NCBI GenBank assembly: GCA_003156805.1
Contig: PMHV01000008.1
Location: forward strand, 214-64,213
Direction: 5' to 3'
Origin: Acidobacteriaceae bacterium
Lineage (GTDB): Bacteria; Acidobacteriota; Terriglobia; Terriglobales; Acidobacteriaceae
Length of the DNA: 64,000 nt
The number at the start of each line of letters is the position of its first letter. Position 1 is the first letter of the stretch. Made by a program: the position numbers and the translations under genes. The notes under the pieces were generated by a model, which saw nothing but the letters and a program-made list of their open reading frames with translations, ran no database searches and was not told where the DNA came from. Positions 10,240 to 55,369 of this stretch are shown here, in pieces.

Positions 10240-10249
10240 CGGAAGCGGC

Positions 10250-11405: not shown

Positions 11406-11420
11406 CCGGTCACTACGGTT

Positions 11421-12806: not shown

Positions 12807-12853
12807 ATATACAATGATATATGTATATCTTTGAAGCAAATTTAGGAGGCGCT

Positions 12854-13499: not shown

Positions 13500-13556
13500 T
13501 TTTGGCTCTAACTACGCCCAATTTGGCTGTCGAATTCTTCCAGCGAGAAAGCTTAG

Positions 13557-34026: not shown

Positions 34027-36027
34027 TTAGCCGTTCAAAATCACCAATGAGTCAGGAAGTTCAGGAGTGCCGAAATCCTGACCGAGAATCTCTTCATACT
34101 TTTCAAAGGTCTGCCGTGCCAGTCGAGACCAGCCCCCGGAAATTCTTACCAGCGAAAGTCCCCCAGCTCCCAGGCTTTTCGCCAATGCCGGGCTGGTCAG
34201 AACAAGCTCCAGAGCCTGGGCAAGCCGCGCTGGATCGGAGGGAGGAACGAGGATTCCCGTACCGCCGTCGATCACCGCATCCCGGCATCCGGCCAATGCC
34301 GAAGCGATTACGGGCTTGCCGCACGCACCCGCCTCGTGCAGCACTAAGCCAAATCCTTCCGAGTCGAGCCAGCCCCGGATTCTGCGCTCCTCGGGCGTCA
34401 GCACAAAGACATCGCAGGCGTTGTAAAGGGCGAGCAGGTCATCGTCGGAAATGCCGCCCAGCATCGAGACCTGGTCCTGCATGCGCCGTTCCCGGACTGC
34501 GTCAGCCAATTCTTCGCCGCAGGAACCTTCCCCCACGACCACCCAGTGCGCACGAAATGGGAGCCTTCGGATCGCTTCCAGAACGTTGAGATGACCCTTG
34601 CGCGGAGCGAGGCGGCTCACCGTCAAAATCAAAGGAACATCCGCGGGAATTTGCCACGCGATTCGAGCCTGCTCGCCCAGTTCAGGCCACGGCCGGAAGA
34701 AGTCGATATCGCAGCCGGGGGTAAATACATCCACGGGAGTCTTTACCCCCCATTCCCGCACCAGCGACGAGGTGTGACTGCTTACCGCGAAGATGGAATC
34801 ACAGGCATTCAACGAATCCACAATATAAGGAGTTGGATCCTCGCCGGCTGGCGAAGGCTGTTGGCCGGTAAGGTCATTGCCATGCACGGTTGCCACGGTC
34901 GGCATCCACTCGGGAATCGCAACGCGGCAAAGCGCGCTGTGGGCGCTGCCAAAATGCACGATGTCGGGTGCGAAGCTTAGCACGATGTCATCGAGCGCTT
35001 CAATAATTTGTTGCCACGCGGCTGTCCGGCTCGACGCCCTGGGTCCCACGGCGAAATGCGCGATGGGCTTGTTTCCCGGGTACCACTGTCCAAGCTTCGT
35101 GACCAAGCCTACTTCACAGAAGTCTGAGAGGCTACCGATCGTCTTCTCAATGAAGATTTGCTCTCCGCCGATCTGCGGGAAGAGAGTTCCGGTGATCCAA
35201 AGAACTCTCATCCTGGCGCCAATCCCAAGTGCGCCTCTGCGCGATTCCTGCTTGGGCGCACTCCCCAAAGATACTTGGGAACGAGGGCTCGAAAATTCTT
35301 CGACATATTGAGGCAACAGGTTGCGCTGCTTTGACAGGAAGTGGAGAATCCTGACTCCCGCCGTCTGCGCCGAATCAATCGACGGGAACCTGTTCGCCGG
35401 GCAATTCCAGGCTGATGACAAAGTGTGGGCCTCGGTTCCGGTATGAGCAAGGGCGCGCACCAGCGCCATTTGGTCGAGGTTGTGGAATCTCTTCCACTCC
35501 TCATGCCACACCTGAAACAGTCGATCAGTCGCCGCACACCGGCGCCACAGGATCACGCCACTATTAAAATAAGGGCGCTGTCTTAACGCCACGCTGTCCA
35601 TGTACTCCAATTCACTTCGTCTTAAATTTGCTTTCTCCCAGCTCACGTCGAGAAAACTTCCAACATCCGTTTGTAAGTCGTTAGCTAGACAAATGTCAGC
35701 AAACTGTAACTCATTCCAGATGGCCTCGATAGAAGCGATGGTCAATGTATCGGCATCCAGGAATAAGGTGACAGGAAATCCGAACGCATTCAGCTGCGTC
35801 TTGTAGTGACGAGATCCCCATTCATCGTCTACTGAGGGTACTTGCACCACTTCGAAGTTCAGATGTTGTTTCTCCCAGTGCTCCACGTCGGTTACGACGC
35901 GAATTGGTCCCTGGTAACCGAATCGCCTCAGAAACGAGATGCTCTGAGTCGTCAATTGGGTAAGGGCATCCCCGATGGAGAGGTATACGATGCCAACCGA
36001 AGAGGGCGCGCTACTCGAATCCTTCAT
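34027..36027 (-). CDS. Two-domain glycosyltransferase: GT-A (GT8-like) plus GT4
   Basis: 666 residues. The N-terminal domain (about 10-265) is a GT-A nucleotide-sugar transferase, with VTLFLDADTLTIAS holding the DxD motif, RPYFNSGVILWRR and a DQMALVRAL helix. The C-terminal domain (about 275-650) is a GT4 retaining transferase with MRVLWITGTLFPQIGGEQIF, PDIVHFGSAHSAL, SRLAPRKGHLNVLEAI, LVVGEG-like VVVGEGSCGEEL, and ESEGFGLVLHEAGACGKPVIAS in the variant DSEGFGLV. Both active sites look intact, so the enzyme may add two sugars in sequence. It is the last gene of the minus-strand accessory block, 86 bases after the dioxygenase-like pair. Confidence 0.85.
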   Translation of the reverse strand: MKDSSSAPSSVGIVYLSIGDALTQLTTQSISFLRRFGYQGPIRVVTDVEHWEKQHLNFEVVQVPSVDDEWGSRHYKTQLNAFGFPVTLFLDADTLTIASIEAIWNELQFADICLANDLQTDVGSFLDVSWEKANLRRSELEYMDSVALRQRPYFNSGVILWRRCAATDRLFQVWHEEWKRFHNLDQMALVRALAHTGTEAHTLSSAWNCPANRFPSIDSAQTAGVRILHFLSKQRNLLPQYVEEFSSPRSQVSLGSAPKQESRRGALGIGARMRVLWITGTLFPQIGGEQIFIEKTIGSLSDFCEVGLVTKLGQWYPGNKPIAHFAVGPRASSRTAAWQQIIEALDDIVLSFAPDIVHFGSAHSALCRVAIPEWMPTVATVHGNDLTGQQPSPAGEDPTPYIVDSLNACDSIFAVSSHTSSLVREWGVKTPVDVFTPGCDIDFFRPWPELGEQARIAWQIPADVPLILTVSRLAPRKGHLNVLEAIRRLPFRAHWVVVGEGSCGEELADAVRERRMQDQVSMLGGISDDDLLALYNACDVFVLTPEERRIRGWLDSEGFGLVLHEAGACGKPVIASALAGCRDAVIDGGTGILVPPSDPARLAQALELVLTSPALAKSLGAGGLSLVRISGGWSRLARQTFEKYEEILGQDFGTPELPDSLVILNG

Positions 36028-36113
36028 AATCTTTATTCCGATCCATTGTGCTCGTGCCTGTGGCGATAGCCCTACGCGAACGAATTGATCTATGGCGAGC
36101 CCGTCCCTGCTCC

Positions 36114-37076
36114 CTATTGAAGAGAGCCGGTGAATCCCTCATCTACATAATGCAGCAGGATCGACGAAGAGCTATATCCACGAGGCAATCTGTCACGGGA
36201 GTGGGGAAGGTATCGTCCACGATAAAGCAACCCGTCGCCGATGTGCTGCCACACCCGGAGCATCCCGTCGGCCGTCTGCAACTCGATGGGCCAGGGATTC
36301 TGCGCCTGGGGTTCAGGCGAGGCGTCAACGCACAGCGTGATGCTGTACTCACATTGCTCCCGGTCGGTGTGCCGGCTCAATTCGGATTCGCTCTGGTAGG
36401 CAACAAAATATGCATAGGAGGGTTTGACCACACTGGCGGCGACGTCGCTGACCACGTGGGCGAATTGATAGTGGTAAAAGCGGGAGACAGCCTCATTGTA
36501 GGCCGCATAGCGCCGGTCAACTTGCGGATCGCCGAGAGAAAACGACCCCATCCGCGTGTGGTAACGATAGTAGCGGCGGAGTGCGCCGATATGAAAAGGG
36601 TGAATAAGGTTGGTCAGAGTGGTGTATCCGCGTTCAAATTGGCCCGCACTGTCTTTCACCGTATGCAGCCATTCACAACGGCGGCGCCCTTCGTAGTTGC
36701 GCTCCACCAGAATGTTCGCCTCTCTCAATACCCACTCAACATGCGCGGGAAGGGCCAATGGCAGGGGATATCCCGGCGCCATCCCACTTAGATAACCGAA
36801 ATACACGCACCCCACCCAGAACGGCCAGATTACGCCAGTCGCCGGATCATCGACCCACACCACCCAATCGCTCGGGCAGAAGTACTCTGAGAACGCCACC
36901 CGCACGCCTTTATCGGGCGGCAGCGGTCCATGCCATGAGAACCAGCACTTGGGATTCACGATCAGGTCCGCGGAGGGATCATGCGCCCGTATCAACCGCG
37001 AGGGCACCAGGTAATGGGGCTGCTCATCCAGCAGACAATGATAAAGATGGGCGGGAAATCCAAAAGGTGTGCTCAT
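36114..37076 (-). CDS. Large 2-oxoglutarate/Fe(II) dioxygenase-like protein
   Basis: 320 residues from the ATG at 37076, which overlaps the upstream stop as ATGA; this decides the start. The C-terminal 100 residues show an iron-binding triad in dioxygenase spacing: His236 and Asp238 (SRHTDREQCEYSITLCVD), then His292 (YLPHSRDRL), with Arg299 as a possible 2-oxoglutarate contact. The segment QHIGDGLLYRGRYLPHSR is typical of phytanoyl/prolyl-hydroxylase-like enzymes. The N-terminal 200 residues do not resemble anything I know and are rich in aromatic residues. Fold assignment rests on motifs only. Confidence 0.65.
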   Translation of the reverse strand: MSTPFGFPAHLYHCLLDEQPHYLVPSRLIRAHDPSADLIVNPKCWFSWHGPLPPDKGVRVAFSEYFCPSDWVVWVDDPATGVIWPFWVGCVYFGYLSGMAPGYPLPLALPAHVEWVLREANILVERNYEGRRRCEWLHTVKDSAGQFERGYTTLTNLIHPFHIGALRRYYRYHTRMGSFSLGDPQVDRRYAAYNEAVSRFYHYQFAHVVSDVAASVVKPSYAYFVAYQSESELSRHTDREQCEYSITLCVDASPEPQAQNPWPIELQTADGMLRVWQHIGDGLLYRGRYLPHSRDRLPRGYSSSSILLHYVDEGFTGSLQ

Positions 37077-37690
37077 CGGTGCAACCATCCGTTCACTGTA
37101 AATCGACTGTCCATAAAGTCTGTTGACACGCACTGCACGGGAAGAACTTCGTGCAGGTATTCACTGACGAAAAAGCAGATCTGGTTCTGCGCGGGCGTGA
37201 TCACGGAATACGGACCGGGCGCCCGGTACTCGCCGTTTTCGAGCTCGGTATCGAAGATGCAGAGCTCGCCACCCGTAAAAGGCTGAGGCTGACGGTAGAA
37301 AAAATAGACGAATGTAATGAGCCGGCTGCTCAACGAATCAGTTCCGTTATCGTTGTGCCTGCGAAAGAACTCCCCGTTGTTGGTAGCGGTGAGCTGAATC
37401 TCCACATCCTTAATTGGGAACCATGGAAAATCCAACCCAGCCAGAACCTGCGGCAGGAAGGCGAAGATTCGCTCGGTGAATACATCGCGGAATTCGCCGA
37501 GTTCGAAGAGGACGCGTGAGCGCCGGTAGCTGGTGTCGACCTGGTGAGTGCCGCCGGCGCCGACCACGCGCGTCGCAGAAAAGTCGTTGCCGCGCTCATA
37601 CGTGTAACGCATGAGATTTTGCCACTCCTCGGCCACAAGAAACTCATCGAAAACTACAAGCGGGACCTGAGCGTTTGTCTCGAGTGTCAT
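37073..37690 (-). CDS. 2-oxoglutarate/Fe(II) dioxygenase, prolyl-4-hydroxylase-like
   Basis: 205 residues, the usual length of bacterial P4H-like enzymes. The triad is complete: His112 and Asp114 in FFRRHNDNGT, His180 in SEYLHEVLPV, and Arg196 (SRFTVNGWLHR) for 2-oxoglutarate. GGELCIFD before the second His is also typical. Family members hydroxylate proline or other side chains of proteins or peptides, using O2 and 2-oxoglutarate, in the cytoplasm. An AAGGA ribosome site precedes the ATG. The gene starts 16 bases after the 1384-residue protein and overlaps the next dioxygenase-like gene by 4 bases. Confidence 0.88.
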   Translation of the reverse strand: MTLETNAQVPLVVFDEFLVAEEWQNLMRYTYERGNDFSATRVVGAGGTHQVDTSYRRSRVLFELGEFRDVFTERIFAFLPQVLAGLDFPWFPIKDVEIQLTATNNGEFFRRHNDNGTDSLSSRLITFVYFFYRQPQPFTGGELCIFDTELENGEYRAPGPYSVITPAQNQICFFVSEYLHEVLPVQCVSTDFMDSRFTVNGWLHR

Positions 37691-37706
37691 GCGGAATCCT
37701 TATTCT

Positions 37707-40700
37707 TTATTCTTTCGCGATTGCCGGGTAGTCATAGGGAATAATCGCAGCATAGACCAACCTCTGTCCGTACACCGTCGCCTCGCGGGCGCTGCCCGAC
37801 CAGACCGGAATTTGCTCGAACTCACGGACTACAATGCGAAAGTCTCCAGCGGCCGGAGCCGTTGCGAAGGCGACGGTTCCAGCCCACAAGACGCTACCCG
37901 GCTGGTTTGGCGCCGGTTGGTCCTCGGTGACTGTAACCACGCTGGATGGAGCCGGTTCCCATCCCATGTTGGTCATCACTTTCGGCATCGCCTGTTCTAC
38001 GGACACCGTCAATAGCGGCGTGGACGGCCCTTGGGGTGCGAGACCACCTACAAATACGCGGGCCTGGCTTGGGTTTGTGGGATTGATACTGACGACAGCG
38101 GAGCGATCGGGAGTGAGTTGCACAAAGTCGGCAAGCACGACTCGCGAAAGTTCCACACCTTGAATGGAATGACTCTGATAGCGAGCCAGGGCCATGCGCA
38201 CTAAGGGCGCATAGGAGGTGGGATTGCTGAATTCGATATCGCAGAACCACAACTGGCGCGCCTGGTCATATTGCACGGTGTGCGCGGCCACGTCGAATGC
38301 CTGGGACGTCTCTTCGAGGGTAAGCCCGGTTGCGGTCGCCGCCGCTTCGGGAAAATCGTAGACATTCGGCACCAAATCCACCGCTCCGGTTTGCCAGATA
38401 GGGTCGCCTCCCCACTGCGTGAAGTACGGCTTGTAGGTCTCACGCAAGGCATAGCTGGGAGGGTTAAGCGAGATCGGCCACAGCACTACGCCGAGTAACT
38501 CATCGTCACCGGAGGAATACCAGGGCCGACTGAGGTAAACACGGACACTGTTTCCGTAGCGAATGGAGGACTTGACATTGGTCGTCTCCTGTTGCTCCCA
38601 TCCGAAGGTGGGAACCACATACAAGACTTCGGGCGGGGCGGGCCACGCCGAACTTGGAACATCGACAACCAGGGGCTCTCCAGTTCTGGTAAAGTCCAAG
38701 CCCGCCGGAAAGTACTCCTGGAAACGAGATGTCGCAGTGGGGGTGTAAGTAACCCATCGATGCTTCGAGTCATTGAAGTTATGGATTGGGGCGGCGACGA
38801 TGCCCGGCTGATCGACGCCCTCAAGTTCGTCGACAGGAGCGGCAAACCACAGATTGTCAACCTGGGGTATGTAGATGGCCACCGCCCGCGTAGTGGAAGC
38901 GGGTGCATAAACCGGCCCAGCCTCGGGCTCTGCCAGCGGAATCGTTTCCACATGATCGCTTTGGATGGAGCTTGTAGGGCCGGGCAGAGAGACATTGTCC
39001 TCGACTTCGATCCAGCTTCCCTGCAAATCGATCCGGGCTGTGCTGTTGGCGTGAATCTGCATGCCACCAAGCAACACCGCCGCGTGGGAGCCCAGACTCC
39101 GCCAGGCGGTAATCGGGGTAAAGTCGTTTCGCAGCGCGGAGGCAAAGATGGGGTTTGATGGCTGATGCACCACCGGCAATTGCAGAAAAGCAGGCAAACC
39201 GATCGGCTGTTGGACAGCGTGCACCATGGTCAGCGTCCGCGACGGGGTGATCATTTCATGACCGCCCTCAGTGACGAGACGCGTCAGCAAGGCGAGAATG
39301 TCGCTGCTGTACGGCACCAGGGAGTTTGCGCCTGCCGTTGTCATCAGATAGGCTTCGTCTGATTCAAAGAGCTCGCGTATCCATCCCCACACCGCCATAA
39401 TGCTCAGGTCGCTCGGAGAAAGATAGCTACTTAGGTCGACCACCGCTACGGAAGATTTTTCCAAGCCCAGGCGCAGCGTCCGAGTTGCCGGGTCCCATTC
39501 CGGAGGTTGCGATGCCTCCTGCATGGTCATCAGAAAGGCTTCGCGCTCCGGCCATTGGGTGCCGAAATCGATGAATGTAACGGAGCCCAGATTCGGTTGA
39601 ACGTCGGGCAGCGGGTCGTAATTCAGTTCCCCGCTTGCCAACAGGCCATAAGTATTATCGGGAGTATTCGGCAGATCTCGAAGCGCCGCACCCCGCGATA
39701 ACGGGTCGGGCAAATACAACACTTGTAATGTGTCCTGGGATTCAAGCTGCACGCCCCCCTGCTTGGGCAACTCGTATTTGTCGCGCGCCACGATCAGGTT
39801 GAAAAGACTTGAGTCGCCCCGCAAATGGCCATGCACATTGTCGAACATGCCATGATGCTCCGCCATGCGTACCGAAGTGCGCGGCGGCGCCACGTGCCGG
39901 GAATCGATCTCCGCAGTCGGCACCACATCCAGCGAGGGATCGCTGTTGAAGGACCGGATCACCAGCCGCTCCAGCGAAGCTCCGGGCTCGGGTGGGTTCT
40001 GGAGAACCAACAGGGGCGGAAGGACAGGCTCGAAACGGAGGTAGGGGAGCAGAACTCCGCCACCCGGAAGCGCGTTCTGTTGCTGAGTCGGGGCCGTCAA
40101 AGGCAGACTATTGCCCGCCAAATCCACGGCCCTGGCGCGGAGCCTGTACTGGTCGCCGAAGCGCAACTCCGGCAGCGAGCCCGCCACCGCCGCAAACTTC
40201 GTCGCCATTTTGAATGGAGTGATGGGCTCATCCATCGTCGGGTCTGGCGTGGTCGCTTGACTCGGATCGGGGCTGCGATTGAGGGCCAGACCGGGGCGCT
40301 GCGCACTCAAGCTCCAGCCATCCCAGCGAGCCACGCGCTCATGCACAAAGATGTCGGTGCTGGGTTGCGGAATATCGGCTGCGGTGGCGATCGGGTCCGC
40401 CGGGCGCGTTGGATCGTCGGCAGGCGACGCTGCCGCGGGCTGCAGGAAGCCTTCTTCGTCCGCGGTTGCCAGCGAAATCGTCTGATTCGGCCCGAATAGG
40501 TAAGTACCGTTGCGACGATGGAGCGAATGCCATTTGCCGGTGCGCGTGGAATAAATGTCAATGCGGAATCCGCGTGTCAGATCGCGCACGTTCAGCGCGC
40601 GGGGGAAGGCGGTGTTGCTGGTGAGGGCCTGATTGAAAGCATTGTTGTCGGTGATCGATTCGAGCAGTTGTTCTCCGCGCCCATTTGCGATCAGGGCGAT

Positions 40701-41861: not shown

Positions 41862-41878
41862 CTCGGATCTTCTCCCTG

Positions 41879-44800
41879 TCACGCAAAGGCGGCTGCGTAT
41901 TGCGACCAATCCTGCGTCGTGAGAACGTTTTCGACGCGCGGGTCTCCCGGCTCGCTGCCGTAGCTTCTTTCCACAGAAATGCTGACTGACGCACTGAAGA
42001 ACAAAATGTGGATTGCGACTGTCAGGGTTGCGCGGCCCTGCACCTTGCTCTTTCCGTTGGAGGTCTCGTAGCTCAATGACAGGTTCAGGTCGAGGGAGAT
42101 GGAAATGATGCCCAGGACGGAAACTTCGCCCCCGACGTCGACAAAGCCTGTCAGGTCTGAGGAGGTGCCGGTGAGTTTGAAATAGATGCCGGCCATGGCA
42201 TGGACGCTGCCCGATGCGACGCCGAGATCCAGGGAAAACTCTCCGCCGAACTCCAATGCCCCCTCGACCATTTGCACGCCGTCGGCGTTCACGATCAGGT
42301 GAACGAATCCCCCGCCGCCCAGGCATTCGACGGTGATCAGGAAAGGCGAGTTGCGTTTGGCGAAAGCAAACTCGAATCCAGGCTGGCCGTCCAGATAGGG
42401 AAGATCAAGCCCGGTCGTGATCGAGATATTCTCAAGCGAGAATACACCGACCGAAACCGGCGGCAGTCCCAGCGTGTAGCTGACGACAATCTCGGAGGGT
42501 TCCAGGTCGATCGACGGTCCGGCTCCCCCGAAAATTCCCGGCGGCAAGACGTTGGCCAGCGTTTGTACGAACGACAGCGGGCCGATGAATTGTATCGGCG
42601 AATTGCTCGGAAGCTTGGCCACCACATTCAGCTTCTGGCCGTTGCTTGAGCTGAACTTGAGCGAGTTGATGGTCAGCGCGATCACGCCGAGCAGGTTGAG
42701 TTGAAAGTTTGTGAGCTGCCCGTTGATCTCCGACGAAGGTGGTCCTCCCGTCATATTTCGGGTGAGGGCCGCCTTCAAAGTCAGAGCGGACGAGAGTCCA
42801 TTTTGGTTGAATTGGATCTTGACCGGATCCTGTTCAAAGTCCTGCAGTTGAGGACTCCATTGGATCTTGGTCACCATCGACGTTGGGTTTTTGGAATTGG
42901 GCTCCAGGACAGTGCGGATTTCCGGCGCATTTTGCGCCGCGTCGGCTAAGTTCGAGCTATCCACCGGGATCAGCTTCTGAAGTGGAATGGCTCCGAATAG
43001 CTGTGCCGTGATATCGAAAAATTCCGCCGGATTAATCTTTCCCGCCGCCGCATCGGAGGCGCTTCCCGCCACCAGGCCCTTCCGGGCAGACAACGCAGTC
43101 AAGACCAGGACGGGAGTGGAAAATCCGCCCGACTGCCCTGCGTTGAAGGCGATCTGAGGTTGCGGATTTGAATTCGGTTGCGGGTCTTGAATCGCCACAT
43201 AGACCCCGGCGTTGCTGTCCAATCCATTTTGCAAATAGCCGGAGTACAAGTTGATCGCCAGGGGAGAAGTCGTTCCCAGGATCTGTTCGACTGAAGGAAC
43301 TGTCGCCGTCGCCCAGTCCAGAGAAGGAATGAACGGCGAAATCGGGTAGGGTGGCTCGGTAAGCTGTAGCTCCGTCGTAAAGTAGAGTTCTGTAGTTCGC
43401 AGCGTAGTGTCGCCCGCATCCGGGTCGGCATAGGCAATCTTTTGGCCGTTCAACGTGCATACCCGCACCGTATCGTCGCTTGCGTAAATGGTTTGCACAC
43501 CCTTCGGAAACCCCTCGTCATCGCTCACGAAAACCAGCGGCGCCAGAAAATCAATGCTGTTTCCCGCCAGGTCCGTCGCCACTACGTGGAATTGAAAGTA
43601 CTGGCTGTTCACTTGCACCCAGAAGGACTGATGCGGATTGCCATCCCCGGTAAGCATCACTGGAACGTCGATGTCCGGCGTGACCGTGGTCTTGATGCGG
43701 ACACTCTGCCAAAACGGCATCTCGCGTTTGCCATACTGGTAGGGTTCGCCTCCATAACTCAACTCCGGCTCGCGCACCACGATGTACATGTGCTGCCGCA
43801 GATAGGCTGTGGCTTGGGTCACCGTGCTTCCATCCGGAGGCACAATTTTTCTTTCCGTCACCTTGATCAGCGAAGCCGCGTGGCCAAACGGATAAAGATA
43901 GCCCGCGTACACGACGCGCACATATTGGTCGCGTCCCAGCGTGGCCTGATGGCACCACTCCATCAGATCCAGAGCCTGGGGAGCGCCAGTTGTGTCGGTG
44001 TATGTGGGTAGCAACTGCCAGCTTCCGCGCGACGAAAGATAACCACCCAAGGGCGAAAGAAAGAGACGGCTGGCTTGAATGGGTACAGGCGTCCATGGGC
44101 TGCCCGGACCAAAGCTGCTGGGAACGGAATAACCCAGCGTGCCCGAGGTCAATATGACGATCTGCATGCGATCATGCGGATCCAGCGACGAGCGAAAAGG
44201 TATCTCCTGATCCAGAAGCGGAATTGGGCCGTGATCGGTGAAATCGTCGGACCAAATCGCGCGGAGAGGAATGGTATTGCTGTCGCTCGCTTCGTCTATA
44301 ACCTGTTCCGTATTCTTACCCGAGGTTACGTTCTTGATTGTGCCCAAGCGCGTATGCCACAGAGCGGTCCGGCCGGCAAAGGTTTCCGGCTCGGTCGCGT
44401 GAGCCCAGCCCACACCTTTTTCTGGCGAAAGCACGATCCGCCAGGGAATCTCAATTGCGGTTTGCAGAAATGCCGGCTCTGGGATCGGCGGCGGTAACGG
44501 CGTACCCAGGGCGACCGGCGAAACCACAAGCTCCAGATTCGACCAGTCCAGCAGACCTTCGATGGTGTAGGGAATTTCCTTTACGCTCGGCGGTACCTCA
44601 AATACGAGCCGGCTTTGTCCCGCCAGGTAAGCCGGAACTGAACCTGGCGCAGCCAGCGGATCGTCGCCCGTGGGCAGCGGGGGAACGGGTGAGTCGAAGC
44701 CGGGATTCGATGTGATCTCCGCGGCCACCTCAAAATACGCTTGCTCCAGAATGCTCTGCGGCGCGAACCACACCACCAGGTAAGCCGGGGTTGAGGCATC

Positions 44801-45349
44801 TTGAATGACGAGTTTCGGATTCCTCGAATTGGAAGTGTCGAGGCGAAGATTGACAAAGTTCACGTAAAACGAAAGCAGATCATCCGGGCGCAAAACCTCG
44901 AGAGGGTTCAGTCCCAGGATGATGGGGATAACTGGCTTCACCGGCACAATGGGCGTTACCGGCACGATTGGCTTCACTGGCACGATGGGCTTCACCGGCA
45001 CAATGGGTTTTACCGGCAAGATGGGCTTGACTGGCGCAGTTGGGATCGCCTTGACGGGAGCGCTCGCAGCGGTCGCTTTTGCCAGCGCGGAATTCGCCCG
45101 AGCGGCTTTGGTAAGCGGCTGAACCACCTTCGTTTGCGAGGGTTTTTGCGCTTCCTGTTTGTTCTTCGCCTGCGCAGGCTTCTTCTTCGCGGGCACTGGT
45201 TTCGCTTGCGCAGGCTTCGCAACCAGTTGATTCTTGGGCTCCGCCTGGGATGGAGCAGGTTTCTCAGACCTGACGGAGTTCGCGGCATGCTCGGCCCGCC
45301 CGTCACCCTGGGGAGCGGATTTCTTCGTGCGGGGCTTTCTTGCTGGCAT
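41879..45349 (-). CDS. Very large protein with basic Pro/Ala/Lys-rich head and DUF6603-like C-terminus (1156 aa)
   Basis: 1156 residues from the ATG at 45349 (PARKPRTKKSAPQ). The first 95 residues are Lys/Ala/Pro-rich and disordered-looking. Then come about six VPVKPI-type repeats (about 98-140), and a soluble beta-rich body with FHVVATDLAGNSIDFLAPLVF, the same DLAGNS motif seen in the 1384-residue neighbour. The last 150 residues (GGGGFVHLIVNADGVQMVEGAL, ALEFGGEFSLDLGVASG, HILFFSASVSISVERSYG) resemble the DUF6603-type beta-structure known from actinobacterial and myxobacterial proteins; this is from memory. No signal peptide. Operon member between the GT27-like gene and the 1384-residue protein. 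Confidence 0.8.
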   Translation of the reverse strand: MPARKPRTKKSAPQGDGRAEHAANSVRSEKPAPSQAEPKNQLVAKPAQAKPVPAKKKPAQAKNKQEAQKPSQTKVVQPLTKAARANSALAKATAASAPVKAIPTAPVKPILPVKPIVPVKPIVPVKPIVPVTPIVPVKPVIPIILGLNPLEVLRPDDLLSFYVNFVNLRLDTSNSRNPKLVIQDASTPAYLVVWFAPQSILEQAYFEVAAEITSNPGFDSPVPPLPTGDDPLAAPGSVPAYLAGQSRLVFEVPPSVKEIPYTIEGLLDWSNLELVVSPVALGTPLPPPIPEPAFLQTAIEIPWRIVLSPEKGVGWAHATEPETFAGRTALWHTRLGTIKNVTSGKNTEQVIDEASDSNTIPLRAIWSDDFTDHGPIPLLDQEIPFRSSLDPHDRMQIVILTSGTLGYSVPSSFGPGSPWTPVPIQASRLFLSPLGGYLSSRGSWQLLPTYTDTTGAPQALDLMEWCHQATLGRDQYVRVVYAGYLYPFGHAASLIKVTERKIVPPDGSTVTQATAYLRQHMYIVVREPELSYGGEPYQYGKREMPFWQSVRIKTTVTPDIDVPVMLTGDGNPHQSFWVQVNSQYFQFHVVATDLAGNSIDFLAPLVFVSDDEGFPKGVQTIYASDDTVRVCTLNGQKIAYADPDAGDTTLRTTELYFTTELQLTEPPYPISPFIPSLDWATATVPSVEQILGTTSPLAINLYSGYLQNGLDSNAGVYVAIQDPQPNSNPQPQIAFNAGQSGGFSTPVLVLTALSARKGLVAGSASDAAAGKINPAEFFDITAQLFGAIPLQKLIPVDSSNLADAAQNAPEIRTVLEPNSKNPTSMVTKIQWSPQLQDFEQDPVKIQFNQNGLSSALTLKAALTRNMTGGPPSSEINGQLTNFQLNLLGVIALTINSLKFSSSNGQKLNVVAKLPSNSPIQFIGPLSFVQTLANVLPPGIFGGAGPSIDLEPSEIVVSYTLGLPPVSVGVFSLENISITTGLDLPYLDGQPGFEFAFAKRNSPFLITVECLGGGGFVHLIVNADGVQMVEGALEFGGEFSLDLGVASGSVHAMAGIYFKLTGTSSDLTGFVDVGGEVSVLGIISISLDLNLSLSYETSNGKSKVQGRATLTVAIHILFFSASVSISVERSYGSEPGDPRVENVLTTQDWSQYAAAFA
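44921..45050 (-). repeat. 18-base tandem repeat encoding VPVKPI units
   Basis: About seven 18-base units of the form GGCTTCACCGGCACAATG (plus strand) with point changes; all changes keep the frame. The coding strand gives VKPILP, VKPIVP (three times), VTPIVP and VKPVIP. Confidence 0.9.
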
Positions 45350-45375
45350 GGTGCGCGTCTCCGAATGGCGGTCGA

Positions 45376-46311
45376 TCACACGATCTCGCCACCCGCCTGG
45401 TCCTCTATTCCGAAGTAACCCACGAACCACTCGAAGGAACGGCGTTGATTCTCCTCAAGCCAGCTTCTTCGTTCCCATACGTCGCTCTGGTTTACTAACT
45501 TCAACGCGGCTTGGAACACTTGCGGGAACGAGCGGGAGTAATACCGGAGTACCTGCATGCATCCCAACTCGCTGAGGTAAAGCAGCGCAAAACGCAGACT
45601 GTTATGGACCCAATAGTCGCGAATGGAGTGAAGAAAAAATGCGAACCGGTCTCTGCTCTTGAATTCATGCTGCACTTCCAGGCCTGCTTGGCAGTGGATC
45701 TCGGCGCCGCGCAGCCAGGCGCGAACGCTGAATTCCGGTTCGCCCCCGCCATACAGAATCATGCCCGGGTCGTAACCACCCAGCTCATAAAAGAGTTCGC
45801 GCGTGAGCACGGTGGCGTGGCAGGTCGCAATCTGCACTGCCGCTGTACCATTCCCCGGTTCACGGTTCCAGGATGTACCCATGAGTGGTACCAGCAAATT
45901 GCAGCCGTAACTGCGAAACTCCGTCCCTTTCTGCACGGTTGTCGCAGCCAGGATGCGGTCACGTCGAATCCGCCGCAACACCAGATCGTCCCATCCGGTT
46001 GAGAATTCCACGTGGGCGTCGGTCATGAACAGAATGTCCGCAGAGGCAACTTCGGCGCCTCGGTTGCGCGCGTGATAATTTCCCGAACGCTGGTCAAGGC
46101 CCTCGACACGAATATCGATATTGGGCTCCTCCAGCAGCCGCGGCAAAGCGGATACCAGATTGGCCACCGTGCCGTCCGTCGAGCCATCGTCAACGATCAC
46201 GAATTCGATGCGCGCGCCACTTGTCCTGGCGCGCGCAATGCTCTGGATTGTCGGCGCAATTCTGGACTTTTCGTTGTGCGCCGGAATCACAACGCTGATG
46301 TCTGCTTGCAC
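45376..46311 (-). CDS. GT-A glycosyltransferase resembling polypeptide GalNAc-transferases (GT2/GT27-like)
   Basis: 311 residues. N-terminal nucleotide-sugar part: ISVVIPAHNEKSRIAPTIQSI and IVDDGSTDGT. The metal motif is DAH (residues 98-100, in FMTDAHVEFSTGWDD), the DxH form that marks GT27 enzymes rather than the DxD of most GT2. Later, YGGGEPEFSVRAWLRGAEI (187-205) and VQHEF (His215) match the order of the WGGE(N)xE...R.W..G and GH motifs of polypeptide GalNAc-transferases. Those enzymes glycosylate Ser/Thr of mucin-like regions. It starts 6 bases after the Pro/Ser/Gly-rich protein gene, a likely acceptor. Confidence 0.85.
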   Translation of the reverse strand: MQADISVVIPAHNEKSRIAPTIQSIARARTSGARIEFVIVDDGSTDGTVANLVSALPRLLEEPNIDIRVEGLDQRSGNYHARNRGAEVASADILFMTDAHVEFSTGWDDLVLRRIRRDRILAATTVQKGTEFRSYGCNLLVPLMGTSWNREPGNGTAAVQIATCHATVLTRELFYELGGYDPGMILYGGGEPEFSVRAWLRGAEIHCQAGLEVQHEFKSRDRFAFFLHSIRDYWVHNSLRFALLYLSELGCMQVLRYYSRSFPQVFQAALKLVNQSDVWERRSWLEENQRRSFEWFVGYFGIEDQAGGEIV

Positions 46312-46317
46312 GGCGTT

Positions 46318-47184
46318 CTAATCCCTCCTTGCACCCAGAGAGGCAATCGCGGTAATGGCAGTGATCGCGGTGGTTGCCGTAGTCGAGACCATAGATACAA
46401 TGCCGAGCACCGAAGTAGCGCAGCAGCATGATCCGCCTCCCCCGCCGGGCGCAGCGACTCCACCCGGCAGCCCCAGTCCGGCCACAATTCCCCCGGGTCC
46501 GGTGGCCACAGTCCCACCGCCGCCTTGGCCGACGCCTCCCCCTCCCGGATAGCTGACAACGCCGCCTGGAGCACCACCCTGTGGTTGCACGACTCCCGGA
46601 TAGAAAACCGGCGCCATAATACCCGGACTTCCGGGATATCCGCTCGGGGTCGCGGGGTAGCCACTAGGTCCAGGGTAGCTGCTTGGAGCGCCAGGGTAAC
46701 TGCTTGGTGCGCCCGGATAACTGCTGGGTGCGCCGATAGAACCGCTGGGTCCACTCGGAGACAAACCCGGCGATGGCTGCCCTGGAGTGCCCGGAGATGC
46801 CGGAGGCTGGCCTCCCGGTGTGCTTCCCGGTCCGCTCGGTGAAGGCCCGGATGGCGACTTACTCGGACCGGTAGACGGCGAAGGACCGGGCGCTGCCGGT
46901 GAGGGACCGGGCCCGCTGGGTGTTTTGGTCGGACCTGCCGGTGAGGGACCAGGACCACTCGGCGTCTTGGTCGGACCCGCCGGTGATTTACCGGGGCTGC
47001 TTGGCCCTGAGCCGGGTCCCACCGGCGTTCCCGAGCTACCGGCGGCGTCGGCGAAACTATACACTGCCTGCTTGAATCTGGGCTGCGTATAGAAAGTGCT
47101 CCCAGTGCGGGGTTGTGCGATTCGCACGGCTGGATTGCTCTGCTGATTGCCATGTTGCGCTGGTTTGGTTGGACGTAAAGCCAT
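46318..47184 (-). CDS. Low-complexity Pro/Ser/Gly-rich (mucin- or collagen-like) protein with Cys tail
   Basis: 288 residues from the ATG at 47184, which has GGAGG 8 bases upstream. Residues 1-50 are ordinary (ALRPTKPAQHGNQQSN, FYTQPRFKQAVYSFADAAG). Then follow tandem PAGPTKTPSGPGPS units (two copies), PSGPSPSGPG, and three GAPSSYP units, a Gly-rich stretch (GGGGVGQGGGGT) and finally CCCATSVLGIVSM...TTAITAITAIASLGARRD. The tail from the Cys cluster is shared with the next upstream gene. Ser, Thr and Pro density makes it a natural target for O-glycosylation and hydroxylation by the neighbouring enzymes. No signal peptide. Other-frame Arg-rich ORFs over this region are shadows. Confidence 0.8.
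   Translation of the reverse strand: MALRPTKPAQHGNQQSNPAVRIAQPRTGSTFYTQPRFKQAVYSFADAAGSSGTPVGPGSGPSSPGKSPAGPTKTPSGPGPSPAGPTKTPSGPGPSPAAPGPSPSTGPSKSPSGPSPSGPGSTPGGQPPASPGTPGQPSPGLSPSGPSGSIGAPSSYPGAPSSYPGAPSSYPGPSGYPATPSGYPGSPGIMAPVFYPGVVQPQGGAPGGVVSYPGGGGVGQGGGGTVATGPGGIVAGLGLPGGVAAPGGGGGSCCCATSVLGIVSMVSTTATTAITAITAIASLGARRD
46663..46985 (-). repeat. In-frame tandem repeats of the Pro/Ser/Gly-rich protein
   Basis: Two blocks: 21-base units coding GAPSSYP near 46675-46738, and 42-base units coding PAGPTKTPSGPGPS near 46900-46985. Units differ by synonymous and a few other changes and keep the frame. Confidence 0.8.
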
Positions 47185-47241
47185 GAAAGTTTCCTCCACT
47201 CTTTCGTAGCGCGGATCCCGCTGGGGTCCCGCGGTTGATGG

Positions 47242-48108
47242 TTATCGAAGTGTGGCAATCGCCGTGATCGCCGTAATCGCAGTTTGAGATGTGGTTGTTA
47301 CTGTCGCCACAAGAGCTGTCACATACGGAGAACAGTCGCATCCCTCTGAGCTGTTCGGCGGCCGAAAAACGGCAGCTTGGTTCGGCGCTGTCTGCATCGG
47401 TATGTGTTCCTGGACACTGGGCGGATTCTCGGAAACTGGAATCGGAGCCCCATAGCTGGGCTCAGTCATGCTCGGGGCGGGTTGTGCTTGTCGAAGGACC
47501 GGTATCGTAGGCAGAGGGTACAGGGGCAGACGGCCAACCGGTACCCGAGTTGGTATGTTCTGCCAGGGAAAAGGTCCCAGCGGCGACGGGGCCCGAAGCG
47601 GAGTCGGCGCAGGTGCGGAAGCGGTCGGCGATGCAGCAGGCGCGGGTTGACTCACCGGAGATCCCACGGGGGCGGGAGACGCAGGTGCAGGCGCAGGTGC
47701 AGGTTGAGGCGCCGGACTGGGTAGTGGGGGCAGATTGGTCAAGACCGGCTCCGGAGGCTGCCCTGAACCTTCGGGAGGCAGTAATCCATCATTCGCAACG
47801 GGTGCCGTTAAATCATCTTTCGTTGCAGCCGGCCCGGGAGCATTGGAAGACATAGCCCGGCTTGTAACAGACCGGCTCGCAACCGTCGTTTTGCTTTCAC
47901 CGTTGGTCTGGGTTGCCTGTTCTTTGCCCGATATCGAGGAAGCCTTTTGCGGAAGTGGAAAGACGCTGGCTCTTTGCAAAACACGAACGTGATCCGCCCG
48001 CAGGCCCAGCGGCGTCCTCAACTTGGCAGGATGATTCCGCAAAGCTGAGACGATATCCGAACTGGCAGCAGCCAGCCGCACAAGTTTGGCGATACGGTCA
48101 AGAGACAT
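47242..48108 (-). CDS. Precursor-like protein: NHLP/Os1348-like N-terminus, Pro/Ala-rich middle, Cys-containing tail
   Basis: 288 residues from the ATG at 48108; the frame is open to 48315 but the earlier part looks non-coding. Residues 1-48 (SLDRIAKLVRLAAASSDIV, SALRNHPAKLRTPLGLRAD, HVRVLQRAS) follow the helix pattern of the Os1348/Franean-type NHLP-clan leader domains: small helix, ALRxxP, LxxxLGL, VxxLxxA. The middle (about 100-250) is Pro/Ala/Ser-rich. The last 33 residues (EGCDCSPYVTALVATV, TAITAITAIATLR) match the tail of the downstream protein. Such leaders normally guide enzymes that modify the C-terminal core. No signal peptide. Confidence 0.7.
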   Translation of the reverse strand: MSLDRIAKLVRLAAASSDIVSALRNHPAKLRTPLGLRADHVRVLQRASVFPLPQKASSISGKEQATQTNGESKTTVASRSVTSRAMSSNAPGPAATKDDLTAPVANDGLLPPEGSGQPPEPVLTNLPPLPSPAPQPAPAPAPASPAPVGSPVSQPAPAASPTASAPAPTPLRAPSPLGPFPWQNIPTRVPVGRLPLYPLPTIPVLRQAQPAPSMTEPSYGAPIPVSENPPSVQEHIPMQTAPNQAAVFRPPNSSEGCDCSPYVTALVATVTTTSQTAITAITAIATLR

Positions 48109-48656
48109 CCGCCTTAAGCCCCCCGAATTGAGCTCGAGCTGCAGCTTTCGACAAAACTTGTGAATAGCAGGTCTTAGCGTGAAGTGACGCCAGAGAGAAC
48201 AACTGCCTGCCAAGCGAACCCCAACAAAAGGCGGCATTAATGGCATCGCCATTTGCACGCCTCGTCGAACGTCCTGCCCCGGGCAGATGAGCGCGATTGC
48301 TCGCGCTGAACACACCCCAAAAAGAGGGCGATTCTACACTTAGGATTTTTTTCACGGCGTATTTATTTGCCGGCCGTTACGATTTCAGGACAGACGCGTT
48401 AGGATCGCCAGTTTTTGTGATATTTTGCGCGTTCAGGTCTTGGGCTTAGCCCGTCCTGCATTTACAAAATCCGGACAAATCTCGAAACGATACCCGCTAA
48501 TTTTGGTTTCTGCAGGCGCGCCTTCACTTCTCTCCCTCTCTTAAGACTCAACCGTTTGAAAGAAAATGAAAATACGGTGAGGCGCAGCTCGAATCAGTCA
48601 GCGGACAACCATTGAAAGGGGCCGTTCTGTCGTTCAAACCGCCGTTGGCGGAATGG
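48109..48656. other. Intergenic region ahead of the precursor-like gene, 548 bases
   Basis: No gene supported. The stretch 48331-48440 is AT-rich. On the minus strand it contains TAGAAT (from 48336 to 48331), which could be a -10 box for the operon, but no good -35 is at the right distance. This is the only long gap inside the accessory block, so the main promoter probably lies here. Confidence 0.45.
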
Positions 48657-49574
48657 CTAATCCCCCAGAGGTGAGACATGATGGAAGAATTTCTTTCGAT
48701 TCGAACTGAAATAATGTGCGGCAACGGGACGCCGGCCGGCCTGAATCGCTTCCACAAACTCGTCGCCCTGGATTAGGTAGTCCCGGGTCAACATCCCTTG
48801 AGACAAATTGCGGATATGGCCGAGGGTCAGCCACAAGGCTATCTCGTCTAATATCCAGTGATTACTCGAGGGATAAGGAAGCGCGCGATCGCGGTCGTAC
48901 GCTGTCGCGGTTCGTCCGACTGCCGTTCGGATGTCGCCGCCTTCCGCGGCCTCGTCGCCAAAGCAGTGGCGGCCGACCAGCAGTCGCCACGCAGCGTCAA
49001 AAAAGGTAGCTCTTAATTGCCCAAAGGTCTCCCAGATATTGTTGTTAAGCAGGCAAACGCCGGTGTTGAAAGGCGACACCCAGCGCAGGCCTTCAAAAGA
49101 GACAATTCGTTCGATCAGTTCTTCGTTGATATTCGACGGATCGTATCCATGGGGACACAAGCGCGAAGTCGGCGCCTCACGCGCAGACCAATGAGCGGGG
49201 ACCGGAGATTCGAAGAGGATTTCCGGATCATTGAAGAAAAACGTATCGCAATCCAGATAGAGCGCCTGTGAAAGTCCAGTGGTATCAGCCTCATTTAAAA
49301 CAAGAAACTTATGGAGCTGGAGCTCGGGACACACAGCTAAGGTTGACCCGTGCGGATGGTTGCGGCGGAGCCAATCGCGATAGTCCCCCAACGGTAGCAA
49401 CATCACCTGCCACCGCTCAGCCTCTCTCTGTATGGCTTCGGAGACTCCGTTGAACACAAAGAAGCAGACTGAAATCCGTCGATTGTACAATCGCAGGCTG
49501 CGGATGCTCTGGATCCATTGATGGTCGTATTCGCGATTTGTGGTTCGTGCCAGAGAGTAATAGATGAGCCGCAT
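48657..49574 (-). CDS. GT-A glycosyltransferase (GT8-like)
   Basis: 305 residues from the ATG at 49574 (GGCGGAGAAG upstream); the frame extends to 49787 without supporting features. The nucleotide-sugar fold shows RLIYYSLARTTNREYDHQW, the helix LQLHKFLVLNEAD, and the DxD motif in QALYLDCDTFFFNDPEIL. WVSPFNTGVCLLNNNIW and a final AAHYFSSNRKKFFHH complete the GT8-like pattern. It resembles the N-terminal domain of the 666-residue fusion. It lies 548 bases upstream of the precursor-like gene, on the same strand. Donor and acceptor are unknown. Confidence 0.82.
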   Translation of the reverse strand: MRLIYYSLARTTNREYDHQWIQSIRSLRLYNRRISVCFFVFNGVSEAIQREAERWQVMLLPLGDYRDWLRRNHPHGSTLAVCPELQLHKFLVLNEADTTGLSQALYLDCDTFFFNDPEILFESPVPAHWSAREAPTSRLCPHGYDPSNINEELIERIVSFEGLRWVSPFNTGVCLLNNNIWETFGQLRATFFDAAWRLLVGRHCFGDEAAEGGDIRTAVGRTATAYDRDRALPYPSSNHWILDEIALWLTLGHIRNLSQGMLTRDYLIQGDEFVEAIQAGRRPVAAHYFSSNRKKFFHHVSPLGD

Positions 49575-51097: not shown

Positions 51098-51141
51098 GCG
51101 GTCGCATGATAGCAAACATGCTGCGGATTCCAGTCGGATCA

Positions 51142-51360
51142 ATGGCGCAGCGAATCGAGGCGCTACCAGCGGCTTTCGCAGATGTCGTCAGCCCGGCCAC
51201 GCAACGGCCATTCGCCCAGGTGTTCATGGCTCAGCCAGACCACATACGCCGGGCGATCGACGCCGCCCATGCGTCCAGGGATGTATGGGAACATACGCTG
51301 GCAGCGGAACGTGAATTGATTCTGCAAAGGGCGAATGGGGTTCGAAGGCAAGAGCCAATT
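51142..51360 (+). pseudogene. Remnant of an aldehyde dehydrogenase N-terminus
   Basis: Reading from ATG 51142, about 70 residues (VVSPATQRPFAQVFMAQPD, HIRRAIDAAHASRDVWEHT, LAAERELILQRAN) follow the order of the N-terminal ALDH pattern: V-NPATGE, V..A...DV..AV.AA..A...W, ER..IL...A. The similarity then stops near 51340. The frame continues as sense-free sequence antisense to the beta-propeller gene. The nucleotide-binding and catalytic parts of an ALDH are absent, so this is a fragment left by deletion or rearrangement. Confidence 0.55.
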
Positions 51361-51411
51361 CACCGTGGCCTCGGCAATACTGCAGAACCAACAACCAGCT
51401 TGGCCACCCTT

Positions 51412-54962: not shown

Positions 54963-55369
54963 TAAACCGCCTCCGCCGCCAGGAACCTGTCTCTGCCCAG
55001 AGCCGCCAGGCTCAGACCGAGCAGGGCCACCGCCGCGCTGCTCCCTCCCAGCGCCGGCGCCATGCTGGCGGGAACTCCACCAAACAGATTGTCGACGCTC
55101 AACAACACGGGCAGGCAGTAGAGCAGTACACGGTGGGTTCGCGCGGCCGAAGCCAGCAGCCACACGCATATAAGATAGATAGCAAGCGCGGGCGGCTCCG
55201 CTAATCGGTGCGGCCATAGTGACCCCGCAAACGTGGCTGCTGCATCGCATGCGCCAAACGCTATCGCAAACCCAAACCGCTCGCGCCGCGACAGCGCGTA
55301 GCATCCGATCGCCACACCGGCCAGGAAGCTATCGCATCCCAGGCCCACTACCGAAAAGAGTCCGTGCAT
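54962..55369 (-). CDS. Small multi-pass membrane protein (MntP-like)
   Basis: 135 residues with five or so membrane segments. The N-terminus (LFSVVGLGCDSFLAGVAIG) and the second helix pair (FGFAIAFGACDAAATFAGSLW) each carry a polar Cys-Asp in mid-membrane, as in MntP-like manganese exporters, though the protein is short and the match is loose. Its TAG stop overlaps the GTG start of the amylase-like gene, so it opens a coupled three-gene operon. What a membrane protein of this kind does beside an amylase and a propeller is not clear. Confidence 0.6.
   Translation of the reverse strand: MHGLFSVVGLGCDSFLAGVAIGCYALSRRERFGFAIAFGACDAAATFAGSLWPHRLAEPPALAIYLICVWLLASAARTHRVLLYCLPVLLSVDNLFGGVPASMAPALGGSSAAVALLGLSLAALGRDRFLAAEAV

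Follow-up and report, generated by a model that had tools for sequence, protein, structure and literature searches.

Do nine genes packed onto one strand of an Acidobacteriaceae genome (G000) make up a single system, and what might that system build? The locus lies in the window, the 64,000-nucleotide stretch of DNA analyzed here, where the first-pass annotation had reported nine genes and tight packing. All nine open reading frames were confirmed on the minus strand between 34027 and 49574 (Table 1). At homolog-supported starts, the genes from PR2 through the second oxygenase are indeed closely spaced, with gaps of 6 (PR2 to the GT27-like gene), 26 (to G1), 17 (G1 to G2), 16 (G2 to the 2OG oxygenase), and 14 bases (to the second oxygenase); PR1 and PR2 are 57 bases apart, and the second oxygenase and GTbi 86. 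For PR1 the most likely start is 48108 (288 aa, MSLD...), judging from a homolog in a second genome that aligns well from that point, and the corrected starts are 41861 for G2 (1384 aa) and about 37058 for the second oxygenase. We recognized no description of such a locus in the literature searched.

Table 1. Genes and C-terminal tails of the locus, with the evidence for each
Feature	Position	Strand	Basis or remark
GT8-like glycosyltransferase, 305 aa	48657..49574	-	Accessory; sub-threshold Pfam Glyco_transf_8
PR1, Pro/Ser/Thr/Ala-rich protein, 288 aa	47242..48108	-	Alignment with G167, composition
PR1 C-terminal tail, CDC...TAITAITAIATLR	47245..47355	-	Alignment
PR2, Pro/Gly/Ser/Thr-rich low-complexity protein, 288 aa	46318..47184	-	Alignment, composition
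PR2 C-terminal tail, CCC...TAITAITAIASLGARRD, type as in PR1	46321..46449	-	Alignment
GT27-like (polypeptide GalNAc-transferase-like) glycosyltransferase, 311 aa, DAH = DxH	45376..46311	-	PF00535, PDB profile
G1, giant protein, 1156 aa	41879..45349	-	Homologs, structure model
G2, giant protein, 1384 aa	37707..41861	-	Homologs, structure model
2OG-Fe(II) oxygenase, prolyl-4-hydroxylase type, 205 aa	37073..37690	-	PF13640, conserved residues
Second, 2OG-oxygenase-like protein (HTD...H)	36114..37058	-	Conserved residues; without family match
GTbi, two-domain glycosyltransferase, 666 aa	34027..36027	-	GT4-type C-terminus, weakly GT8-like N-terminus; accessory

Of the nine genes, seven recur with order and strand unchanged in G167, a genome from another genus of the same family (PR1-PR2-GT27-like-G1-G2-2OG-2OG-like). 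The five non-repetitive genes are 53-61% identical between the two genomes, the GT27-like gene being at 61%; the middles of PR1 and PR2 align poorly. The two G1 copies are sisters in the tree, with support 100/100. It is well supported that these seven genes form one unit. The proposal that the whole locus is one system is therefore supported for the seven genes but not for the outer glycosyltransferases (GT8-like and GTbi), neither of which has a homolog at the G167 locus, where GT10 and O-FucT-like genes are found instead. Additional glycosyltransferase genes, of differing families, thus adjoin the cassette in both loci. Only these two genomes are known to carry the cassette, and the comparison therefore stops at two loci. 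By its content, the seven-gene set appears suited to producing and modifying mucin-like, proline-rich proteins alongside two giants.

The first-pass annotation had proposed to check whether homologs of the giants bring the same neighbors and to regard the cluster as chance if they usually do not. We collected 91 G1 loci, namely the best 80 of at least 133 genome relatives plus 11 plasmid loci, with one Streptomyces plasmid entered twice (L014, L046). In 64 loci the sequence extended 3 kb or more before G1 and 2 kb or more past G2; the other 27 had shorter flanks or no detectable G2. G2 accompanies G1 in 82 of the 91, and the available flanks show the P-rich proteins, the GT27-like enzyme, and the oxygenases in none (flanks ample in 64). 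Likewise, eight other genomes of the family with G1 show none of the genes that accompany the giant pair in the cassette, with more than 3 kb on both sides in only three. With no widely recurrent partner among these loci, the idea that the giants hold the key to the cassette was rejected. Their homologs usually occur as a pair without the rest, exactly the outcome reserved for a verdict of chance, yet that verdict is wrong and the cluster is real, since its order is kept in G167. G1-G2 is a separate two-protein module of many phyla, among them Cyanobacteria, Chloroflexota, Actinomycetota, Pseudomonadota, and Acidobacteriota, and the giants do not define the cassette.

Pfam, NCBIfam, and PADLOC contain no model that matches either giant. 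In the structure models, G1 has a basic/proline-rich N-terminus followed by an all-beta core (residues about 150-1156, pLDDT 81), and G2 is predicted to be a tandem beta-sandwich (FN3/Ig-like) protein (residues 190-1384, pLDDT 79); structure matches are partial only. Residues 787-981 of G1 form a curved, porin-like sheet that matches OmpG (Z 13.4, rmsd 4.8, 184 aligned, 8% identity), and strands are amphipathic, as a closed outer-membrane barrel might show, yet the family also occurs in many Streptomyces. The FN3/Ig-like matches of G2 reach a Z of at most 8.7, near the level rated common. Usher, lipid-transfer, and other structure matches of G1 were too weak to use, and G1 matches in 5 of 100 other genomes were dropped as low-complexity N-terminal stretches of 27-66 aa. 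Tat-type N-termini occur in 12 of 61 G1 homologs by a strict pattern, and one homolog has LysM domains. An anti-phage role was rejected, since G1, G2, the GT27-like enzyme, and the second oxygenase all lack a PADLOC match; so was a phage origin, with G1 in no phage record and the giants in one IMG/VR contig.

Could the giants themselves be the substrates and the product, decorated by the GT27-like enzyme and the oxygenases while PR1 and PR2 serve as helpers, for example as chaperones or as linkers binding the enzymes through the tail? No genes of the locus are larger than theirs, which are flanked by those for the enzymes, and the window's G1 opens with a long Lys/Ala/Pro-rich N-terminus bearing VKPIVPVKPIVP repeats, with low-complexity N-termini in a number of other homologs. 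The G1 of G167, however, lacks such an N-terminus while the enzymes are retained, none of these enzymes stands beside the giants in the available flanks of the 91 other loci (ample in 64), and the dense S/T/P regions are those of PR1 and PR2. We therefore consider this arrangement unlikely.

PR1 consists of 18% P and 19% S+T, and PR2 of 19% P, 21.5% G, and 22% S+T. Pro and Ser/Thr richness is retained in both genera despite the diverged middles, and Ser/Thr occurs near Pro in these candidate acceptors. All four proteins (PR1 and PR2, both genomes) end in a Cys-rich tail, ...TAITAITAIA, with 10 invariant columns across the four sequences. There is no LPXTG cell-wall anchor, the C-termini being the CxC...TAITAITAIA tail; inspection by eye revealed no signal peptide on PR1 and PR2 or on the enzymes, and no export route for PR1 and PR2 was found. 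Besides G000 and G167, one of 297 other genomes of the class searched gave a tail match better than 1e-3. G696 has a third tail-tagged protein, which is Gly/Ser/Asp-rich with 0.8% P and adjoins other possible tailoring genes (phosphoribosyltransferase-like, Stealth-like); no homolog of the cassette oxygenases was found in the 44 kb around it, whereas the two proline-rich loci carry them. Gly-X-Y runs of at least five triplets number three in the G696 protein and zero in PR1 and PR2 of both genomes. Weaker tail matches in 13 further genomes (0.006-0.05) were dropped, six low-scoring open reading frames from the search had no tail on inspection, and a plasmid search gave only chance-level matches.

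Paralogous proteins beside tailoring enzymes also bring to mind the peptide-precursor alternative of the first-pass annotation, here taken as a RiPP-like natural-product pathway. PR1 and PR2 would be precursors led by the MSL(D/E)... stretch of PR1 or by the tail, and the product would be a short, modified piece released from them. The N-terminal stretch of PR1, about 50 aa, is 46% conserved with G167 while the middle varies, and the Cys-rich tails are conserved. This stretch is missing from PR2 in the alignment, though, the tail sits at the extreme C-terminus, and the PR proteins are repetitive, with lengths of about 260-360 aa. No protease, transporter, or cyclizing enzyme was recognized among the seven conserved genes, although three of them (G1, G2, and the second oxygenase) match no family and could hide one. 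On balance we regard this pathway as distinctly unlikely.

Of the two dioxygenases originally claimed, the 205-aa protein is supported by Pfam (PF13640, 1.3e-15), and its His, Asp, distal His, and Arg are conserved in 9 of 9 aligned sequences (RRHND, LHEVLPV, DSRFT). It is of the prolyl-4-hydroxylase type, with proline hydroxylation as its putative activity; its matches to prolyl hydroxylases in the PDB are weak (best 6t8m, 0.0034, and 4iw3, 0.005), and PADLOC returns only generic 2OG models. The second protein has no family or PDB match, and its assignment therefore draws on the HxD...H residues conserved among nine aligned homologs. In Pfam, its 339-aa open reading frame, G1, G2, PR1, and PR2 are all without a match. 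Oxygenase pairs like that of the cassette also occur elsewhere on the chromosomes of the same genus, with no P-rich neighbor in the loci examined; in several, the oxygenase's own N-terminal part is proline-rich, so the cassette pair may act on something other than PR1 and PR2.

The GT27 resemblance of the first glycosyltransferase was borne out. Beyond its Pfam match (PF00535, 1.4e-21), a two-sequence profile against the PDB gave 16 matches, the 15 best being polypeptide GalNAc-transferases (best 3.5e-18 over residues 4-219). D97-A98-H99 and H214 are invariant in both copies and align with the LDAH and VGH of 1xhb; the DxH motif is assigned to GT27 and GT60 in PMC7185993, and PMC4202792 also describes the motif. 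The enzyme (311 aa) has no match to the C-terminal ricin-type lectin domain of GT27 and in this respect falls outside that family. Among GALNT proteins the best, GALNT1, scores 65.5 bits, barely above the 59.4 bits of the NCBIfam mycofactocin glycosyltransferase MftF, whose cutoff is 280. By sequence, then, it appears to be a relative of protein-modifying GalNAc-transferases, with GalNAc transfer to Ser/Thr as a putative activity. Weak GT27-like matches were seen in G204 and G559 (28-29% identity); because scoring was limited to the 5-11 top candidates of each genome, further homologs may exist. The gene was found in 0 viral contigs. Of the outer enzymes, GTbi matches PF00534 over its C-terminal half (9.9e-35). 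The GT8-like gene falls below the cutoff for Glyco_transf_8 (E 0.012), has no match at 1e-6 in 199 other genomes searched, is absent from L171/L172, and has no detectable relationship to the N-terminal part of GTbi.

Enzymes of the GT2, GT4, GT8, and GT10 types are typical of surface-polysaccharide and lipid-glycan loci, and all are present at the cassette loci. An ordinary locus of that kind, with the low-complexity proteins and giants adjacent but unrelated, would nevertheless leave the P-rich proteins within the conserved gene order unaccounted for. The best PDB relatives of the GT27-like enzyme are protein-modifying, and no flippase, polymerase, or nucleotide-sugar gene was recognized among the seven genes, which makes such a locus a highly improbable source of the pattern.

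The left flank of the cassette is syntenic in five of five same-genus genomes, and past it the next 12.5-13.6 kb of those genomes contain none of the window's genes at 1e-15; the left boundary adjoins a conserved flank and is therefore a variable site. That boundary, the 0 of 91 giant loci (27 short-flanked or without detectable G2), and the eight other family genomes with G1, which likewise show none of the cassette's other genes (three with more than 3 kb on both sides), would fit a chance gathering of a giant pair, an oxygenase pair, and glycosyltransferases in a variable region. Against it, another genus keeps the order and strand of seven genes, five of them at 53-61% identity, and the tails are conserved in both genomes, which makes this the most remote of the explanations.

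Our preferred reading, in line with the first-pass annotation and assigned a probability of roughly 0.55, is that of a rare accessory cassette whose enzymes O-glycosylate two disordered proteins bearing the tail, and probably hydroxylate them as well, perhaps for display with a beta-rich complex of the giants. We infer its substrate, chemistry, and location as follows. The cassette genes would be co-transcribed, and the disordered, Pro/Ser/Thr-rich PR1 and PR2 would be made and then modified before display. The Cys-rich TAITAITAIA tail may be the tag that the modifying enzymes recognize. The GT27-like enzyme would add the first sugar to Ser/Thr of the P-rich regions, presumably in the cytosol, since neither the enzymes nor PR1 and PR2 show a signal peptide by eye. 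The oxygenases would hydroxylate prolines in the same regions, and the outer, genome-specific glycosyltransferases may extend or cap the glycan. The product could then act at the cell surface with the independent, beta-rich G1-G2 module, which several relatives mark for Tat export.

Among bacterial systems, the serine-rich repeat glycoproteins of Gram-positives (Fap1, GspB, and other SRRPs) receive their sugars in the cytosol and leave the cell by accessory Sec. They resemble the proposed cassette in having a gene set devoted to them, in which a low-complexity, Ser-rich acceptor comes with glycosyltransferases of its own (PMC7948813, PMC5207161, PMC6291802). The cassette differs in its Pro-rich, TAITAITAIA-tailed acceptors, GT27-like enzyme, two oxygenases, and giant pair, and family matches recognized no accessory Sec genes (SecA2/SecY2, Asp) among the seven conserved genes. 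The Pgf locus of Streptococcus mutans is a small glycosyltransferase locus for the surface adhesin Cnm (PMC5856776), and Bacillus BclA is a glycosylated collagen-like surface protein of a species that also has a P4H (PMC8968730). BclA resembles the cassette in pairing a candidate glycosylated low-complexity surface protein with a P4H-type enzyme; unlike it, PR1 and PR2 have no Gly-X-Y runs of at least five triplets. We know of no TAITAITAIA-type tail or giants for BclA, nor of oxygenases, a tail-tagged pair, or giants for Pgf.

Among eukaryotic systems, animal mucin-type O-glycosylation (GT27) shares with the cassette the nearest solved structures, which are pp-GalNAc-transferases, the DxH and distal His, and Ser/Thr near Pro in the candidate acceptors. 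The cassette enzyme differs in being bacterial and without a lectin domain, and its donor sugar and acceptor are putative. Plant and algal hydroxyproline-rich glycoproteins (extensins, AGPs) offer a similar combination of Pro/Ser/Thr-rich proteins with a P4H-type oxygenase and glycosyltransferases; in the cassette, hydroxyproline is putative. The glycosyltransferase families of the plant and algal systems differ from the cassette's.

A wider reading, which we offer tentatively and consider doubtful as a whole, is that the locus represents an undescribed bacterial class of proteins in which a short C-terminal tail marks any low-complexity chain for adjacent enzymes. The acceptors would be Pro/Ser/Thr-rich in two loci and Gly/Ser/Asp-rich in a third; the enzymes would be the GT27-like protein and oxygenases with GT10/O-FucT-like or GT8-like/GT4 partners, and phosphoribosyltransferase-like and Stealth-like proteins in the third. 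With such a class, bacteria would have a counterpart of their own, modular in design, to mucins and hydroxyproline-rich glycoproteins, combined in this locus with G1-G2.

Independently of how the cassette is read, G1-G2 is a large two-gene family in many phyla whose function can now be tested. If the cassette reading is true, mucin-type glycosylation would exist in bacteria as a cassette that combines a GT27-like enzyme and oxygenases with a C-terminal tag that is portable. Such a cassette would offer small enzymes for producing defined glycoproteins, and it would bear on the origin of mucin-type and hydroxyproline-linked glycosylation.

The window forms part of a 5.03 Mb assembly (contig 38 of the source genome, G000), and the nine minus-strand genes named in the first-pass annotation are all present in it, as judged from reading frames and homology (see table). 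Seven of them, from PR1 and PR2 (proline-, serine- and threonine-rich proteins) through the GT27-like glycosyltransferase and the giant proteins G1 and G2 to the two oxygenases, are treated here as the cassette. Intergenic gaps of only 6 to 26 bases from PR2 to the second oxygenase suggest that this stretch is read as a single transcript. G1, G2, PR1, PR2 and the second oxygenase had no match in Pfam or NCBIfam.

Genes of the minus-strand locus and the basis of their assignment
Feature	Coordinates	Strand	Basis
GT8-like	48657-49574	-	homology + reading frame
PR1	47242-48108	-	homology + reading frame
PR2	46318-47184	-	homology + reading frame
GT27-like	45376-46311	-	homology + reading frame
G1	41879-45349	-	homology + reading frame
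G2	37707-41861	-	homology + reading frame
2OG oxygenase	37073-37690	-	homology + reading frame
Second oxygenase-like protein	36114-37058	-	homology + reading frame
GTbi, two-domain glycosyltransferase	34027-36027	-	homology + reading frame

The left flank (genes up to 33817) is syntenic in all five same-genus genomes examined, and past it the window's further genes are absent from the next 12.5-13.6 kb of those genomes (at 1e-15); the start of the cassette, at about 33.9-34.0 kb, is therefore a variable site. No tRNA was detected in the window. Beyond the cassette, 49871-55304 on the same strand encodes an MFS-type transporter (named by eye), a propeller protein of PQQ/BamB-like type and a protein with weak resemblance to alpha-amylases (Alpha-amy_C_pro, 0.00038, just under cutoff), all outside the seven conserved genes.

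A first search, covering 199 other genomes, gave a single strong relative of the GT27-like enzyme, in a genome from another genus of the family (G167). No further strong relative was present in 396 genomes of the phylum, which yielded two matches at 28-29% identity. The G167 locus carries all seven genes in the window's order on one strand, with identities of 61% (GT27-like), 55% (G1), 53% (G2), 53% (2OG oxygenase) and 54% (second oxygenase), and the seven almost certainly constitute one unit. Adjoining the G167 cassette are a GT10 gene (PF00852, 7.3e-9) and an O-FucT-like gene (PF10250, 5.2e-6, below cutoff). Of 398 genomes of the family, 10 encode G1; the eight besides these two have the giants (G589 has G1 only in part) and show none of the other cassette genes, with flanks of more than 3 kb on both sides of the giants in three (G692, G522, G544) and short flanks in the rest, from a contig end (G589, G693, G815) or the limited stretch compared (G483, G777). 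A tree built from 41 G1 sequences places the two cassette copies as sisters (100/100), with those of G483, Cyanobacteria and Methylobacter next to them (100/96).

The giant pair is a module independent of the cassette. A pattern-based scan of 84,980 species, one genome each, found at least 133 G1 relatives, and tblastn found G1 in 15 of 72,556 plasmid records and in no phage records. We compared the neighbourhoods of the best 80 of these 133 and of 11 plasmid loci (one locus is counted twice), 64 of the 91 extending 3 kb or more upstream of G1 and 2 kb or more downstream of G2. G2 was found in 82 loci, immediately after G1 in 80; in the other two, either the preceding G1 or G2 itself is broken. 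Nine loci have no G2, and in five of these the sequence stops within 0.5 kb of G1. At none of the 91 loci was there a homologue (at 1e-4) of PR1, PR2, the GT27-like enzyme, either oxygenase or the GT8-like protein, and the GT4 part of GTbi had a weak match at two. No neighbour family recurs widely among the 91, the commonest being short-chain-dehydrogenase-like (named by eye; seven loci).

Four Streptomyces loci (L044, L051, L054, L056) have a related gene in common, which encodes about 366-372 aa and immediately precedes G1 in at least three of them. On plasmids of Agrobacterium vitis, Sinorhizobium meliloti and Ruegeria (L018 1922-16633, L015 7550-19028 and L016 6086-20777) the G1 homologues are very large (2277-3311 aa), and one or two further large ORFs come after them; the homologue lies near dpdE/dpdF in L018 and has an N-6 DNA methylase gene upstream in L015. 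An IMG/VR contig classed as viral (L228, IMGVR_UViG_3300004093_000021) has a G1-G2 pair at 5815-13612 (G1 identity 37%), about 2.7 kb from an ORF resembling a phage terminase (by eye) and an HNH-type ORF; prophages may carry the giants at times.

Some G1 proteins are probably exported or envelope-bound, given a strict Tat pattern in 12 of 61 homologues with a readable N-terminus and LysM domains in the N-terminal part of G1 from Mycobacterium sp. ACS4331 (L062 8231-12775). AlphaFold2 models the G1 core as all-beta, with a C-terminal curved sheet like part of porins whose strands are amphipathic in all seven sequences examined, Streptomyces among them. Most of G2 (residues 190-1384) is beta-rich in the model, and its C-terminal part contains FN3/Ig-like sandwiches.

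In both genomes PR1 and PR2 contain 16-21% Pro and 19-33% Ser+Thr, and 28/54, 47/64, 42/62 and 95/118 of the Ser/Thr residues in the four proteins have a Pro no more than three residues away. Their middles are barely alignable, residues 1-50 of PR1 are 46% identical between the genomes, and all four end in a tail with Cys-x-Cys, a TAITAITAIA-type end and 10 invariant columns. A search of 299 genomes from the class with a profile of the tail recovered these four and one protein in G696 (1.3e-6); matches in 13 other genomes were all 0.006 or worse, and six low-scoring ORFs inspected lacked the tail. With 0.8% Pro, 33% Gly and 28% Ser+Thr over its 255 aa, the protein of G696 contrasts with the proline-rich PR1 and PR2, so that, judging by these sequences, the tail is bound to no single chain composition. 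Its locus (L213 12282-15502) comprises the Gly/Ser/Asp-rich tagged protein, a phosphoribosyltransferase-like gene overlapping it by 4 bases (TIGR00336, 9.5e-8, below cutoff) and, 6 bases on, a weakly Stealth-like gene (Stealth_CR2, 0.019, below cutoff); the surrounding 44 kb hold no homologues of the giants, oxygenases or GT27-like enzyme. These genes may modify a substrate of this kind in another way.

The 15 best solved relatives of the GT27-like protein in the PDB are polypeptide GalNAc-transferases. Both copies conserve DxH and the distal His, in agreement with the motifs given for GT27 in passages of PMC7185993 and PMC4202792. Of the NCBIfam models, all of which fall far below cutoff, MftF (mycofactocin glycosyltransferase) fits the GT27-like protein best, its 59.4 bits being not far from those of GALNT1 (65.5). 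Because of this proximity and the absence of a lectin domain, we call it GT27-like and not a GT27 member.

The 205-aa 2OG oxygenase has the HxD...H...R set and the second oxygenase HxD...H. Of the 45 genomes of the genus, 36 (G000 counted) have a relative of the latter, as do 4 of 105 others; in G000 the one besides the window copy lies on C74, in an oxygenase pair at G000:C74:75536-76492 (L156 9031-11390). In the eight chromosomal loci read (its own, six others of the genus or family, and G123), the relative is paired with a 2OG oxygenase whose N-terminal part is longer and, in several, rich in proline. A protein-kinase-like gene adjoins seven of the eight pairs and purQ- and yebC-like genes lie near some (names by eye); in G123 the second oxygenase sits inside a 704-aa ORF. 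The window copy of the second oxygenase is 54% identical to its G167 counterpart and 43% to its own paralogue, so the two cassette copies probably form their own lineage.

In the portions of the open-access literature searched, no description of such a locus was recognised, and the Gram-positive serine-rich repeat glycoprotein system, as portrayed there, is the nearest working analogue. A further bacterial parallel is the glycosylated, collagen-like Bacillus protein BclA, from a species with a prolyl-4-hydroxylase (PMC8968730). PR1 and PR2 are probably the modified products, and we consider it rather likely that the GT27-like enzyme glycosylates them at Ser/Thr. The oxygenases stand in both proline-rich loci and are absent from the proline-poor one (n=3 loci); hydroxylation of the prolines is put forward tentatively. 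Display of the product together with the giants is conceivable, at slightly less than even odds. For the statement as a whole, that the cassette glycosylates and probably hydroxylates tail-tagged proteins, we estimate a probability of roughly 0.55.
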